This document shows, one piece after another, positions 15,292-20,111 of a stretch of 64,000 nucleotides of DNA (positions within the stretch are counted from its first letter, which is position 1; each line of letters starts with the position of its first letter). Below the pieces are notes generated by a model. That model made no database searches, was not told where the DNA came from, and saw nothing but the letters and a program-made list of their open reading frames with translations. The translations under genes and the position numbers were made by a program. This stretch comes from Sedimentibacter sp. MB35-C1. Lineage in GTDB: Bacteria; Bacillota; Clostridia; Tissierellales; Sedimentibacteraceae. The stretch is taken from the NCBI RefSeq assembly GCF_030913635.1, contig NZ_CP133188.1, positions 2,294,001 to 2,358,000 of the forward strand, read 5' to 3'.

Positions 15292-15306
15292 TTGAAGTAT
15301 TAAAAT

Positions 15307-15342
15307 AAAACCTGTTTTCAGAAATTGAAGGCAGGTTTTTTA
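15307..15342 (+). terminator. Terminator of the rimO-pgsA unit
   Basis: AAAACCTG (15307-15314) pairs with CAGGTTTT (15332-15339), extended by TTTC/GAAG inside, then a T run. It closes the long core operon. Confidence 0.8.
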
Positions 15343-15448
15343 TTATGCTGAGTAACGCTTTAAATAAAAAAATTTTCATTTAATTTTGTTATTTTATAAA
15401 TTATTTTCATATGTACACTTATTTTCAAATTAAATAAATTTATCTGAA

Positions 15449-15477
15449 TTGTCTTATTTCTATCAGCAAGTTAAAAT
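15449..15477 (+). promoter_or_regulatory. Predicted promoter of the DUF5058/M20 operon
   Basis: TTGTCT at 15449-15454, 17-base spacer, TAAAAT at 15472-15477, 30 bases before the first gene. Confidence 0.55.
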
Positions 15478-15507
15478 AATATCAATTAAAAGAAAAGGAG
15501 CTACGAT

Positions 15508-16203
15508 ATGGATTACTTAAAAATGGCCAATAGCCTTCCGATGTGGATTGCTGCCGGCATTGCTGTGCTTTTGGTATTAATACAATCGATAATATTTGCT
15601 ACTAAATCTTTTGCAACCGGAAAAGAAATAGGAATTTCGGAAAGTGCAATGAAGGATGCTATGAAAAGCAGCTTCATCACTTCAATAGGACCGTCTATGG
15701 TAATTCTCACGGGGTTGTTATCTTTACTGGTAACAGTTGGAGGCCCGATGGCATGGATGAGACTGTCTTTCATAGGCTCGGTAATGTTTGAGCTAATGGC
15801 AGCAGGTTTCGGAACACAAGCTGCAGGAGTTGAAATGGGTGTAGATGCAATGACTGATGTTGCTTTTGCAAACGCTGTTTGGACAATGATTTTAGGTTCA
15901 ATAGGATGGATTGTTTTTTCAACGTTTACTGCAAATAAAATGGACAAAGTACAGCAGAAATTTTCAAAGGGCGACAAAGGCCTTATTACGATTGCATCTA
16001 CAGCGGCAATGCTTGGAGCTTTTGCATCGTTGAGCTCAAGTCATCTTGTGGCCATGAACAAAAATACCATTGCGTGCATAGCCGGAGGGCTCATAATGGC
16101 AATAATAGGGCCGCTTGGTGATAAGAAGAATATAAAATGGCTTAAAGAATGGACTTTGGCAATAGCGTTATTTGGCGGAATGATTGTGGCCGCAGTTATT
16201 TAA
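15508..16203 (+). CDS. DUF5058-like integral membrane protein, putative transporter component
   Basis: The 231-residue protein is almost entirely hydrophobic, with about six predicted membrane segments (starting at residues ~10, 55, 85, 120, 160, 205). The start MDYLKMANSLPMWIAAG and the motif KSSFITSIGPSMVILTGLLSLL look like the DUF5058 family of clostridial membrane proteins; this is from memory, not a search. It has the ribosome site AAAAGGAG and is 12 bases upstream of another membrane protein. Together with the following amidohydrolase and PucR regulator it may import or export a small amide or peptide. No transport activity is known to me. Confidence 0.75.
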   Translation: MDYLKMANSLPMWIAAGIAVLLVLIQSIIFATKSFATGKEIGISESAMKDAMKSSFITSIGPSMVILTGLLSLLVTVGGPMAWMRLSFIGSVMFELMAAGFGTQAAGVEMGVDAMTDVAFANAVWTMILGSIGWIVFSTFTANKMDKVQQKFSKGDKGLITIASTAAMLGAFASLSSSHLVAMNKNTIACIAGGLIMAIIGPLGDKKNIKWLKEWTLAIALFGGMIVAAVI

Positions 16204-16215
16204 AGGAGGTATGAA

Positions 16216-16917
16216 ATGGAAGAGACAAATAAAAGCAATGTATATGAAGGAAGTTATATAGCATATATAAACAAGTGGGGTAAAATAACAAATTGCCTGG
16301 GAATATTATTTTCGTTCGGGCCGGCGTTTGTATTAGCAGTTATATTTGATATAATGCCGCCTTCGAGTGCTATCATGACGGGATTTATATCAATAGCAGG
16401 TGCTGTAGGTGTACTTTGGTTTGTTGAGCCCGTTTCCTATTTTCCAATAATAGGTGTGGCGGGGACATACATGGCATTTATGTCAGGAAATATTTCAAAT
16501 CTTAGAATCCCATGCGCCGCTATAGCTCAAAAAATTGCAAATGTAGAACCGGGTACAAATGAAGGAGCAATTGTTGCAACGCTTGGGATGAGTGTATCTA
16601 TAATTGTTAACATTGTTATTCTAGCTGTTGGTGTGTTTGCCGGAAGCGCAATAATGACTGTTCTCCCCGAGTCGATAATAAATGCTTTGAACTATCTTCT
16701 GCCGTCTTTATTTGGAGCGATATTTGTGCAGTTTGCAATTAAAAAAATTAAACTTGCTCCTATCGCTATGGCATTAGGACTTGGGCTTACTTTGTCGGTT
16801 AATGCCGGGGTGTTTAGTTTTATCCCGGGAGGAAAACCCACATATCTTGTTACTCTTGGCTCGGTTTTCGGAACAATAATAATTGCATCGCTGCTATACA
16901 AAAAGAAATTAATATAA
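16216..16917 (+). CDS. Integral membrane protein, putative transporter partner
   Basis: A 233-residue protein with about six or seven hydrophobic segments after a short hydrophilic N-terminus (to about residue 28). Features are FGPAFVLAVIFDIMPPSSAIM, GVAGTYMAFMSGNISNLRIPCA, which resembles the re-entrant or substrate-contact loops of transporters, and a basic end YKKKLI. It starts 12 bases after the DUF5058-like gene with AAAGGAGG and is followed after 10 bases by the M20 enzyme, so the three are one operon. I recognise no characterised family. The two proteins probably form one complex. Confidence 0.7.
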   Translation: MEETNKSNVYEGSYIAYINKWGKITNCLGILFSFGPAFVLAVIFDIMPPSSAIMTGFISIAGAVGVLWFVEPVSYFPIIGVAGTYMAFMSGNISNLRIPCAAIAQKIANVEPGTNEGAIVATLGMSVSIIVNIVILAVGVFAGSAIMTVLPESIINALNYLLPSLFGAIFVQFAIKKIKLAPIAMALGLGLTLSVNAGVFSFIPGGKPTYLVTLGSVFGTIIIASLLYKKKLI

Positions 16918-16927
16918 GGAGTCTATA

Positions 16928-18298
16928 ATGAATAAACAAGAATTAATTGCAGAGGTAGAAAAGTTAAAGGATGTTATTACAGACGCAAGTATAAGCATTT
17001 GGAATAATCCTGAAATATCCGGAGAAGAAAAGTTTTCATCTGAACTTATAAAAAATATATTAAAAAATAATGAATTTAAAATTTATGATATAAACAACGT
17101 AGAGTATGCTTTTTATGCCGAGTATGGCCAAGGAAGCCCCGTAATAGCAATTATGGGAGAGTATGATGCATTGCCTGGTATGTCTCAGAAAAAAGATATT
17201 AAGCATAATCCTGTAATTGAAGGAGGCAACGGACATGGGTGCGGCCATAATCTTTTGGGAAGCGCTGCTATGGGAGCTGCACTAGCGCTAAAAAATTATA
17301 TAAAGCAAGATAATGTTAAAGGTACAATAAGATTCTATGGCTGTCCTGCTGAAGAAACATTGAATGGAAAAGTGGAAATGATACGAGAGAACGCATTTGA
17401 CGGATGTGATGTGGCATTAAGCTGGCATCCTATGAATGTAAATACTCCAATTTATAATTCATATCTTGCTAATAACTCTATAAAATTTAAATTCAATGGA
17501 ATATCGGCACATGCAGCAGCGGTTCCTCATCTTGGAAGAAGTGCTCTGGATGCTGTTGAGCTTATGAATACGGGTGCAAATTATATGAGGGAACATGTAA
17601 TTGATAAGGCAAGAATACATTACACCATTACTGATGCCGGAGGACCTCCTAATATAGTTCCGAAGGAAGCAGAATCATGGTATTTCATCAGAGCCCCACA
17701 TAGAAAGGATGTTACTGAAATCACCGATAGGCTTATAAAAATTTCTGAAGGAGCTGCTCTTATGACTGAAACAGAGGTAAGCCATAAATATGTTGCAGGA
17801 TGTTATGAAATGATGCCAAACAAGGTTTTGTTCGATCTTACGTATAAAAACATGCAAGAGATTTCGGGACCGGATTTTACTTTAGAAGAACTGCAGTTTG
17901 CTGATGAAATTCAAAAAACTGTAAGTGAGCACCAGGTTGAGGATGATCTAAACAACTACAAAATATTTAAAAAATATTCGATGCATAAGCATGTTGTTTC
18001 TAAAGAGGTAGCACAGGAGACGTATTTAACAGGTTCTTCAGACTCAGGGGATGTAAGCTGGATACTACCTATGAATTGCTTTCTGACAGCATGCTGGCCT
18101 TTGGGAATAAATCCTCATACGTGGCAGGCAACATCAATGGCGGGATCAGAGGTTGCGCAGAAAGGAATGTTGTACGCTTCAAAAGTCTTTGTGTCAATTG
18201 CATACGATCTGTTAAATGATAGCAGTCTTGTGGAAAGTGCGAAAAAAGAATTTTCTGACAAAACTAAAAATAATAAATATGTTCTGCCTTTAAAATAA
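16928..18298 (+). CDS. M20-family amidohydrolase (AbgB-like)
   Basis: The 456-residue enzyme has the metallopeptidase M20D layout: GEYDALPGMSQ, the metal-binding GHGCGHNLLGSAAMGAALA, the catalytic acidic pair CPAEETLNGK, SWHPMNVNTP, and a dimerisation domain (SAHAAAVPHLGRSALDAVE). The C-terminal metal region is NPHTWQATSMAGS. Close relatives are the AbgB subunit of p-aminobenzoyl-glutamate hydrolase and other cytosolic aminoacyl-amide hydrolases, so it likely cleaves an N-acyl or amide-linked amino acid. It is the third gene of an operon with two membrane proteins, which suggests hydrolysis of an imported substrate. No signal peptide. Confidence 0.88.
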   Translation: MNKQELIAEVEKLKDVITDASISIWNNPEISGEEKFSSELIKNILKNNEFKIYDINNVEYAFYAEYGQGSPVIAIMGEYDALPGMSQKKDIKHNPVIEGGNGHGCGHNLLGSAAMGAALALKNYIKQDNVKGTIRFYGCPAEETLNGKVEMIRENAFDGCDVALSWHPMNVNTPIYNSYLANNSIKFKFNGISAHAAAVPHLGRSALDAVELMNTGANYMREHVIDKARIHYTITDAGGPPNIVPKEAESWYFIRAPHRKDVTEITDRLIKISEGAALMTETEVSHKYVAGCYEMMPNKVLFDLTYKNMQEISGPDFTLEELQFADEIQKTVSEHQVEDDLNNYKIFKKYSMHKHVVSKEVAQETYLTGSSDSGDVSWILPMNCFLTACWPLGINPHTWQATSMAGSEVAQKGMLYASKVFVSIAYDLLNDSSLVESAKKEFSDKTKNNKYVLPLK

Positions 18299-18305
18299 TT
18301 TTATG

Positions 18306-18366
18306 AAAAGATGTTTCATTATGCGATGCGGTCTGTTTGCAGCATTCAATATTGAAACATCTTTTT
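18306..18366 (+). terminator. Terminator after the M20 gene
   Basis: AAAAGATGTTTCA (18306-18318) pairs with TGAAACATCTTTT (18353-18365) around a 34-base structured interior, ending in T. It separates the transport/hydrolase genes from the regulator. Confidence 0.8.
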
Positions 18367-18370
18367 ATAT

Positions 18371-18399
18371 TTGATTTTATTATAAAAAAAATATATAAT
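18371..18399 (+). promoter_or_regulatory. Predicted promoter of the PucR-type regulator gene
   Basis: TTGATT at 18371-18376, 17-base spacer, TATAAT at 18394-18399. Confidence 0.65.
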
Positions 18400-18447
18400 T
18401 TATATATATTTTAGAGGCGGTGATATTTTGGGATAACAGTTAGAGAA

Positions 18448-20043
18448 ATGATGAAAGCAGAATTTTTTAAAGACTATAAGGTAATAGCGGGACATGGCGG
18501 ATTAGATAACCAAATCCAAGGTGTGACTGTATTGGATGCCCCTGACGGCTTCAAATGGACGATGGGCAAGGAGTTTGTAATAACTTCGGGATATATATTT
18601 TCAAGAGATTTTAATTATCTGAACGAATATATATGTTCGGATGAACTAAGGAAAAATGCTGCATTGGGAATAAAATTTGTCAGATATCTAAAGCGTACTC
18701 CTGAAAATCTAATTGAGGCCTGTAATAAATGCAACGTTCCGCTGATAGATATACCTGATAAAGATCCTTTTATGGGAATATTTAATGCAGTTAATGTAAT
18801 TGTTATGAATAAAAATATTCGGCAGTTCAATATAGGCAGAATAAATCCCAAAAGCTTTACGGATCTTACATACCAGGAAATGAAAATTAAAAAAATATTG
18901 AATAGCCTTGAATATGAGATGGAATTTCCGGCAATGCTTTACGATTTAATTGACGATAAGGCATATTATAGTTCAAACAAGTTTAAAGAGCTGTCAGTTG
19001 GTTTCAGCAAATATGACTTTTGGAATCCATCCTTTAGCCATAGCGTGGAAGTTATGTGCGACAATTTAAAAATGATAAGATACAGATTTTATGACGACAA
19101 GTATGACAAGCCATACAGTTGGATAACTGTTCCCATAAGCGTAAAAAACAAAGTTAGGGCGTACTTTGTTGTCATGGAGGCAACAGAACTTTTAGACTAT
19201 TTCGATCAATTTGCTCTTCGAATAGGCTTTGTGCAAATTCAAGCGATGTTTGAGCAAATACTTGTAGCACAAAGCTCTGGCGATAGAGGGTTTGCATCTG
19301 TAGTTAAGAATATTATTAATAAAAGATATGATAAAAAAGAAATTATTGAAAAAGCCCTTGAATACGATCTTGATGTAGACAGAAAAAGTTGCATGTTTGT
19401 AATTGAACAAAAAAATAAAGGTATTCTTATTTCAGGATACAGCGATATTATCAATAGTGATAAAAGGCAGGTTTTTGGTTTAAATACATGTCAAATGGCA
19501 TTAATGGGAGATAACAGATGCCTTTTTATGTATAATTTTACTGAAAGGGAAAAAACAGATAAAGAATATGAAGCGATGCTCAATAAAGTCTGCAATTTAA
19601 AAAAACGTCTGGAATTAGATATAGAAGGTTCAGAATTTATAATTGGGATTTCCGATGTGTCTGATTATATTTTTAACGCAGGTAGAAATTATGATAGATG
19701 CCTAAAGTCAATATGCATGGGTTCACATATTTATCCCGGCCTAGATATAATAGAATATTCCCGGCTGGGAGTGTTTGCATGGGTAGATATAAAAGAGGAC
19801 GAGATCGATGTAATGAAAAAAGGAATTGAAGTTTTATATACAGACGAAGCAAATAGTGAGCTTTTGGAAACATTAAAGGTTTATCTTGAAAACAAAATGA
19901 ATTTTAGCCTTACAGCTGAGAAATTGTTCGTGCATATTAATACTGTGAGAAAACGAATTGAAAAGATAAGCGACATGATAAGCATAGATCTCAATGATGA
20001 AATGAATCGCATCAAGCTTGAACTTCTTCTTAAAATAATATAA
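18448..20043 (+). CDS. PucR-family transcriptional regulator (start region apparently frameshifted)
   Basis: The 531-residue protein has an N-terminal PucR ligand domain (KVIAGHGGLDNQIQGVTVLD), a long middle sensor region, and a C-terminal PucR helix-turn-helix (NFSLTAEKLFVHINTVRKRI). PucR proteins control purine, allantoin or amino-acid catabolic genes, so it probably controls the preceding M20 operon. Oddity: the near-perfect ribosome site AGGCGGTGAT (18415-18424) fits a TTG start at 18428, which then reads TTG GGA TAA. One extra base in the GGG at 18430-18432 would give the typical start MGITVREMMK. As written, translation must begin at ATG 18448, without a good ribosome site. Confidence 0.9.
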   Translation: MMKAEFFKDYKVIAGHGGLDNQIQGVTVLDAPDGFKWTMGKEFVITSGYIFSRDFNYLNEYICSDELRKNAALGIKFVRYLKRTPENLIEACNKCNVPLIDIPDKDPFMGIFNAVNVIVMNKNIRQFNIGRINPKSFTDLTYQEMKIKKILNSLEYEMEFPAMLYDLIDDKAYYSSNKFKELSVGFSKYDFWNPSFSHSVEVMCDNLKMIRYRFYDDKYDKPYSWITVPISVKNKVRAYFVVMEATELLDYFDQFALRIGFVQIQAMFEQILVAQSSGDRGFASVVKNIINKRYDKKEIIEKALEYDLDVDRKSCMFVIEQKNKGILISGYSDIINSDKRQVFGLNTCQMALMGDNRCLFMYNFTEREKTDKEYEAMLNKVCNLKKRLELDIEGSEFIIGISDVSDYIFNAGRNYDRCLKSICMGSHIYPGLDIIEYSRLGVFAWVDIKEDEIDVMKKGIEVLYTDEANSELLETLKVYLENKMNFSLTAEKLFVHINTVRKRIEKISDMISIDLNDEMNRIKLELLLKII

Positions 20044-20049
20044 TTAACG

Positions 20050-20078
20050 TTGACAAATAACTGAATAACAGATATAAT
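20050..20078 (+). promoter_or_regulatory. recA promoter
   Basis: Consensus TTGACA at 20050-20055, 17-base spacer and TATAAT at 20073-20078. Confidence 0.9.
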
Positions 20079-20082
20079 TAAA

Positions 20083-20096
20083 AGAACAAATGTTCT
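20083..20096 (+). promoter_or_regulatory. LexA operator of recA
   Basis: AGAACAAATGTTCT is a perfect palindrome of the Gram-positive SOS form GAAC-N4-GTTC, placed 5 bases after the -10 box, at the expected transcription start. lexA is also in this window. Confidence 0.92.
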
Positions 20097-20111
20097 AAAA
20101 AGGAGTGTATA

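Follow-up and report, generated by a model that had tools for sequence, protein, structure and literature searches.

Two small membrane proteins encoded side by side in Sedimentibacter sp. MB35-C1, a DUF5058 protein and a partner without annotation, probably form an uncharacterised two-part importer. Their genes lie in a stretch of 64,000 nucleotides (contig NZ_CP133188.1, positions 2,294,001 to 2,358,000; hereafter the window) of a 3.62 Mb genome held in one contig, and they are followed by genes for an M20 amidohydrolase and a PucR-type regulator. The position of the pair beside an amide-cutting enzyme parallels that of AbgT beside its enzyme in Escherichia coli, and we give about a two-in-three chance to the reading in which a two-part importer, an AbgB-type hydrolase and PucR work together like abgABT, AbgT being replaced by an unrelated two-gene carrier.

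According to this reading, the DUF5058 protein and its partner would both be required to make up a single secondary transporter belonging to a family so far uncharacterised. This transporter would bring in small conjugates in which an amino acid is amide-linked to an acyl or aroyl group, and compounds like p-aminobenzoyl-glutamate are the first candidate substrates. A cytoplasmic AbgB-type M20 metalloenzyme would then cut the amide to give the amino acid and the acid, and PucR would sense substrate or product and control the unit. Transport, its uptake direction and energy coupling, the substrate class and the role of PucR are what we infer from the observations below.

A literature search by the names DUF5058 and PF16481 found no paper within the collection searched, and we are aware of no earlier account of the pair in that literature; nor was a proven other function found in papers naming DUF5058 or PF16481, the only ones in which it was sought. 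The proposal would provide a testable function for a domain of unknown function that occurs in ∼8% of sampled genomes of the phylum (31/398 over the cut-off), and the unannotated partner would gain a role. If right, it would add a second route besides AbgT by which folate fragments or acyl-amino acids enter anaerobes, some of which have gut-derived records, and it would illustrate how an inverted-repeat carrier can be divided between two genes.

Constancy of the pair and its hydrolase neighbours

The two membrane proteins are constantly paired in the loci examined. A survey for DUF5058 gave matches in 11 of 41 relatives, in 33 of 398 genomes from the phylum (31 of these above the cut-off) and in none of 14 control genomes. 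The partner follows DUF5058 in all 45 regions drawn from this survey, which comprise the window, 14 non-self places in relatives and 30 other over-cut-off genomes (G193 and G154, below the cut-off, were left out). A second, named set consisted of the best 80 of 125 relatives detected among 84,980 species genomes; the search behind it started from a five-row alignment and was biased towards the window's own branch. The partner adjoins DUF5058 in 80/80 of these loci, in one of which (L137) it is split into two pieces, and the median gap between the two genes is 16 nt (79 named loci). When 72,556 plasmid records were scanned, the same 12 matched both proteins at neighbouring places; in seven of them the partner match spans 80% or more of the query, and a profile check of nine plasmid loci found both proteins in every one. 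No open reading frame (ORF) in the surveyed loci matched both profiles, so no natural fusion was seen. For 117 pairs, the distance matrices of the two proteins correlate with r = 0.96, where shuffling gave no more than 0.18; shared descent alone would also give such a result. Record titles from the species-genome scan include Bacillota, Synergistaceae, Deltaproteobacteria and Phoenicibacter, and those of the plasmids name haloarchaea (six records), Paracoccus, Vibrio and Arthrobacter-type bacteria. At one locus (L063, genome G061) a single in-frame TGA interrupts DUF5058, the partner gene being intact, and four of the six haloarchaeal records (L293, L296, L297, L298) carry a TRIC cation channel family gene upstream of the pair on the opposite strand.

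Removal of four duplicates left 121 distinct loci, of which 114 have at least 900 nt downstream (7/121 dropped) and could be tallied for M20 neighbours. The M20 profile was built from the pair's neighbours themselves, and the counts come from a rule-based tally instead of the gene-order tables, whose crude gene calling missed some genes and one of which omitted L064 and L075. In 94/114 loci the pair is followed by a same-strand M20 gene at a distance of no more than 500 nt, and 97/114 have one on either strand within 2.5 kb. The downstream count is 66/72 in the named set and 28/42 in the unnamed, less biased one. After clustering at >80% identity, which took in 111 of the 114 loci (three with short or split proteins were left out), an M20 gene was present in some member of 49 of the 64 clusters and in every member of 48. 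As background, the 453,710 bp lying >5 kb from the pair hold one M20 gene, where ∼2.6 would be expected from the 21 M20 genes in this 3.62 Mb genome. The grouping of these genes is far beyond chance. The sequence-only reading had named a pair mostly away from M20 genes as a finding that would refute it, and had called for a search of the neighbourhood in other genomes; that search shows M20 to be the usual neighbour, in the less biased set as well.

The rule tallies 17 loci without M20 within 2.5 kb. At one of these, L075, an M20 ORF overlaps the end of the partner and was misplaced by the rule, so that 94/114 undercounts by at least one. Ten others carry a different hydrolase for amide, peptide or related bonds: a D-aminoacylase-type amidohydrolase in five (L081 and L151, which were scanned, and L053, L146 and L153, assigned by cluster), with an S58 peptidase and an Asp/Glu racemase also present in L053; an amidohydrolase in L085; an M42 enzyme in L087; an AAT-type Ntn hydrolase in L062; an isochorismatase family protein in L056; and an ATC hydrolase in L048. 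A tree was built from 117 joined pairs (4/121 loci with short or split proteins were left out, and long branches leave parts of the tree unsure). To place the 11 neighbour labels on it, with "none" and "too little sequence" counted among them, takes 24 changes or more, as against a shuffled mean of 49.4. By this measure the enzyme class follows the carrier's descent, yet has been repeatedly exchanged.

A second arrangement consists of the pair, an M20 protein of ∼370 amino acids (aa) and another of ∼445 aa (L175, L181, L183, L188-L191; also L138, L170, L174). It is often followed by a ∼430-aa protein without a Pfam match (L191 scanned), which lies upstream in L138 and L170 and on the other strand in L174. 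Among the plasmids, the M20 gene of one Paracoccus locus lies directly upstream of the pair, and in L294 (Paracoccus pantotrophus pPAN2) the pair and an amidohydrolase stand beside a 3-keto-5-aminohexanoate cleavage protein, an aminotransferase, glnHPQ and a C45 peptidase.

The AbgB-type enzyme and comparison with abgABT

The catalytic and dimerisation domains of the window enzyme, together with a match to TIGR01891 ("amidohydrolase", NCBIfam; 248 bits, cut-off 153.75), support its membership of M20D. E. coli AbgB is its closest characterised relative among those compared (368 bits, 42% identity over 460 aa), and AbgA scores 62 bits. It is the sole AbgB-grade protein of its genome (387 bits; next 124). 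Residues C105, H107, E142/E143, H167 and H397, which we take to be the candidate M20D metal ligands, are invariant in 53/53 full-length AbgB-type neighbours of the pair (duplicates included) and in E. coli AbgB. An identity as allantoate amidohydrolase was tried and rejected (profile score 10.9 bits; cut-off 584). Elsewhere in the genome, a 409-aa M20 relative at G000:C1:3408009-3408893 (L305, L311) scores 124 bits to AbgB, is absent from the Pfam M20 listing and has a weak AbgT-profile match nearby.

An AbgB-type enzyme lies within 2.5 kb of the pair in 56/114 loci, 38 of which also have PucR as a same-strand neighbour. None of 57 AbgB-type enzymes, the window's included, has an N-terminal hydrophobic segment, and cleavage would therefore follow import. 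Such a segment is present in 9/71 other M20 neighbours (L055, L060, L069, L071, L073, L074, L077, L084, L088), which are possibly membrane-anchored.

The enzyme type suggests an aroyl- or acyl-amino acid as substrate. This agrees with the amide-linked amino acid of the sequence-only reading, which had also proposed dipeptides; these are less favoured for the window enzyme because the E. coli p-aminobenzoyl-glutamate hydrolase (PGH), a manganese-dependent AbgA/AbgB heterotetramer, left a range of dipeptides uncut (PMC5082436). For the wider family, peptides may well be among the cargo, since other loci combine the two membrane proteins with M42 and S58 peptidases.

Like the window unit, abgABT places a membrane transporter gene next to that of an AbgB-family M20 hydrolase, and E. 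coli takes up p-aminobenzoyl-glutamate in an AbgT-dependent manner (PMC6002978). The two systems differ in their other parts. AbgT is a single protein of 508 aa, whereas the window has two proteins of ∼230 aa without a family match to AbgT, and there is no AbgT in the operon; the abgABT regulator is the LysR-type AbgR rather than PucR; and abgABT has the partner subunit AbgA, for which the window unit has no counterpart. Enzymes of the AbgA type do occur with the pair in other hosts: the gene after the pair encodes an AbgA-type M20 enzyme in 6/6 haloarchaeal plasmid records (289-311 bits to E. coli AbgA), and, with the exception of that of Halalkalicoccus, these units (5/6) have glycine cleavage or serine hydroxymethyltransferase genes nearby. 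Judged from these sequences, the pair meets both halves of PGH across its loci, and in haloarchaea a context linked to glycine or folate.

Predicted complex and competing explanations

The window pair was modelled by AlphaFold2 as one read-through chain from 114 aligned rows (8 of 122 drafted rows were dropped), and a second pair, L163, with a longer linker and 104 rows (10 more dropped). A predicted complex of the two proteins, which the sequence-only reading had wanted to see, was confident in both cases, although there was no control pair: the predicted local distance difference test (pLDDT) and predicted template modelling (pTM) scores were 84.4 and 0.83 for the window and 83.4 and 0.76 for L163. 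One longer stretch of the window model falls below a pLDDT of 50 (residues 216-237, the last DUF5058 helix and the artificial linker); in the L163 model that helix is formed. Together with the 94/114 loci, the models give partial support to the sequence-only reading of a two-component transporter that would feed an M20 enzyme; transport itself remains the conditional part of that claim.

The models contain two sets of about seven helical segments, the third segment of each being broken. Lys and Arg gather in DUF5058 loops 34-52, 141-159 and 202-214 and, in the partner, at both ends and in one loop. Because of this distribution, the positive-inside rule suggests that the two proteins have opposite orientations, with the ends of DUF5058 outside and those of the partner inside; the weak point is the N end of the partner, where acidic residues outnumber basic ones. 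Each protein would then have six membrane crossings and one re-entrant broken segment, which would hold the invariant R85 and E95 in DUF5058 and the GNxxNx[RK]xP stretch in the partner (conserved Y85, G91, N92, N95, P99). Across 44 DUF5058 sequences, P62, G78, R85 and E95 are 100% conserved and W83 and G90 98% (aligned residues).

Among the best 50 of 647 and of 775 Foldseek matches, those with a probability of at least 0.7 are of the SVCT1, SLC26A3, SPDT, UraA, prestin and AE1 types, which we take to be seven-transmembrane (7-TM) inverted-repeat carriers and their plant, fungal and bacterial relatives, and VcINDY and CitS, of the ion transporter superfamily, stand low in one list (0.15-0.18). 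Unlike the window pair, 7-TM inverted-repeat carriers (UraA, SLC23, SLC26, SLC4) are single chains; they have two seven-segment repeats, whereas the charge pattern of the window pair favours six crossings and a re-entrant segment. A parallel in gene arrangement is DUF979/DUF969, also two membrane proteins from adjacent genes beside metabolic enzyme genes. PMC11467057 describes these as a predicted heterodimer (interface pTM ∼0.9) of subunits with one related repeat each, encoded in operons with 5-oxoproline genes. An hhalign comparison of DUF5058 and the partner with DUF979 and DUF969, which are placed in the ion transporter superfamily, found no similarity; the test was a weak one, as the DUF969 set of eight held some unrelated proteins and the method also failed to match DUF979 to that set. 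Pcp-like neighbours were noted, by eye only, in L267-L270.

These features can be drawn together in a broader proposal that we hold only tentatively, the odds leaning against it: the pair might represent an obligate antiparallel heterodimer carrier family of bacteria and haloarchaea, with two inverted repeats, kept in one chain by other secondary carriers, encoded apart and joined with at least five unrelated hydrolase groups. Its subunits would have related topologies with no detectable sequence similarity; their sequence profiles do not match each other. We take the five groups to be the M20/M42 peptidases, the amidohydrolase superfamily, the AAT-type Ntn hydrolase, the isochorismatase family and the ATC hydrolase.

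We were concerned that a number of results weigh against an importer working like abgABT. By sequence, neither membrane protein could be placed in a known transporter family (Pfam, NCBIfam). AlphaFold2 might pack any two helical proteins, and both models are read-through single chains with no control pair. The Foldseek matches listed at a probability of at least 0.7 (up to 1.00) have TM-scores of 0.23-0.35, on account of which no fold is assigned, and root-mean-square deviations of 14-22 Å; one listed match across both searches has an E value below 0.001. No hydrolase was identified close by in L051, L068, L089, L137 (where M20 is 4.3 kb off) or L179, L079 has only a PGA_cap-family neighbour (by cluster with the scanned L082), which was not counted as an amide hydrolase, and the profile check of nine plasmid loci found no M20 in those of Vibrio and Paenarthrobacter. 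The analogy with E. coli is also incomplete. No protein of the window genome reaches AbgA grade (the best scores 112 bits, against 289-311 in the haloarchaeal units), and a second M20 lies within 2.5 kb in only 14/56 AbgB-type loci. The genome's own AbgT (623 bits) lies elsewhere, with none of 21 Pfam M20 places near it, so that p-aminobenzoyl-glutamate is perhaps already served. In 40 AbgB-homologue regions without the pair, taken from the best matches, AbgT (E. coli AbgT being the sole query) was found in one, which argues that AbgB types need no set transporter neighbour. Finally, the ligand set from our alignment disagrees with the account of the AbgB site in PMC5082436, where metal-binding residues are kept only in part upon alignment to carboxypeptidase G2, with glycine for one histidine. 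Because AbgA is missing, second M20 genes are few, AbgT lies elsewhere and AbgT is rare near AbgB, we keep the proposed substrate at the level of an acyl- or aroyl-amino acid. Some of the AbgB homologues (L243, L252, L253, L257) stand in ABC transporter-like gene groups, judged by gene order and hydrophobicity only.

The strongest competitor, to which we give only slightly less than an even chance, overlaps with this explanation and differs in substrate: the pair would carry short peptides or N-acyl amino acids generally, and the enzyme would be an aminoacylase or dipeptidase of broad range rather than one that acts on folate fragments. The M42, S58 and other M20 classes at other loci would fit such a breadth, as would the missing AbgA and the best PDB sequence matches of the window enzyme, in which HmrA (126 bits) and Xaa-Arg dipeptidase (107) come ahead of aminobenzoyl-glutamate utilization protein (54); the closeness of the enzyme to AbgB and the dipeptides left uncut by E. 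coli PGH (PMC5082436) point the other way. Export of the hydrolase product, or exchange of substrate for product, in place of symport import would yield the same gene order, and the 9/71 M20 neighbours with a hydrophobic segment, if membrane-bound, could be near the carrier. We nevertheless consider this unlikely, since the 0/57 figure for AbgB-type enzymes means that substrate would be needed inside, and the glycine cleavage genes near 5/6 haloarchaeal units could consume the product there.

A role for the pair as channel or sensor, rather than carrier, with the hydrolase as its neighbour by regulation only, is less probable still. The want of a known transporter family and the poor Foldseek superposition would suit such a role, but the pairing is constant, the hydrolases come from several unrelated families with a common chemistry, and the listed Foldseek matches at a probability of at least 0.7 are all secondary carriers or carrier-family members such as prestin. 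PucR and M20 families both occur in purine and allantoin degradation, and a unit of PucR with an allantoate amidohydrolase would combine them in the same way; we regard that as extremely improbable for an enzyme of the AbgB type.

Genomic slot and features of the locus

The four ORFs called in the sequence-only reading were recovered as it had described them, on the forward strand at the positions given in Table 1, which also lists their Pfam families. Its tight operon was also borne out, the first three ORFs being separated by spacers of 12 and 10 nt. The partner has no Pfam or NCBIfam family at E ≤ 1.

Table 1 Features of the four-gene locus and its flanks in the window
Feature	Position	Strand	Basis and remarks
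Flanking gene pgsA, 186 aa	14731-15291		Named by eye
Intergenic region ahead of the operon	15292-15507	.	Terminator-like hairpin at 15307-15339
DUF5058 membrane protein, 231 aa	15508-16203	+	ORF; Pfam DUF5058 (PF16481) 4.4e-73, 246 bits against a cut-off of 28.2 (above gathering score); proposed carrier subunit 1
Partner membrane protein, 233 aa	16216-16917	+	ORF; proposed carrier subunit 2
AbgB-type M20 amidohydrolase, 456 aa	16928-18298	+	Pfam Peptidase_M20 and M20_dimer
Imperfect inverted repeat	18302-18369	.	Repeat search; 28-nt arms, 82% complementary, 12-nt spacer, T-rich end
PucR-type transcriptional regulator, 531 aa	18448-20043	+	PucR 9.6e-25 (87.6 bits), HTH_30 4.2e-18 (65.3 bits)
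Flanking gene recA	starts 20112		Named by eye

The inverted repeat between the M20 and PucR genes is a possible terminator separating the three-gene unit from the regulator, although a terminator scan restricted to loops of 3-8 nt did not report it; because of its position, the PucR gene may form its own transcript behind a three-gene one. In the intergenic region ahead of the operon, where an operator would be expected, no motif was established, and the upstream promoter, terminator and repeat searches gave nothing beyond chance. Over the whole region there was no excess of promoter-like sites (24, against a shuffle mean of 23.7) or of terminator-like ones (3, against 2.5).

The sequence-only reading had placed the operon in a slot between pgsA and recA usually taken by cinA, and this part of it did not hold. 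The sole CinA match of the genome is ∼1.5 Mb from the operon. Among 20 recA loci returned from 25 genomes of the genus (five genomes gave none), a pgsA homologue stands directly before recA in 17, at a spacing of ∼73-405 nt; the operon lies between the two genes in two, the window genome and G015; and one has no pgsA within the stretch examined. Since recA usually comes right after pgsA in this genus, the operon represents an insertion between the end of pgsA and the recA promoter, seen there in two genomes. A recA promoter-like site with 12/12 consensus bases lies at window positions 20050-20111 and is followed by a palindrome, GAACAAATGTTC. This box, which we take to resemble a Gram-positive LexA site, is present in the recA promoter of the window and of 8/9 relatives among those listed.

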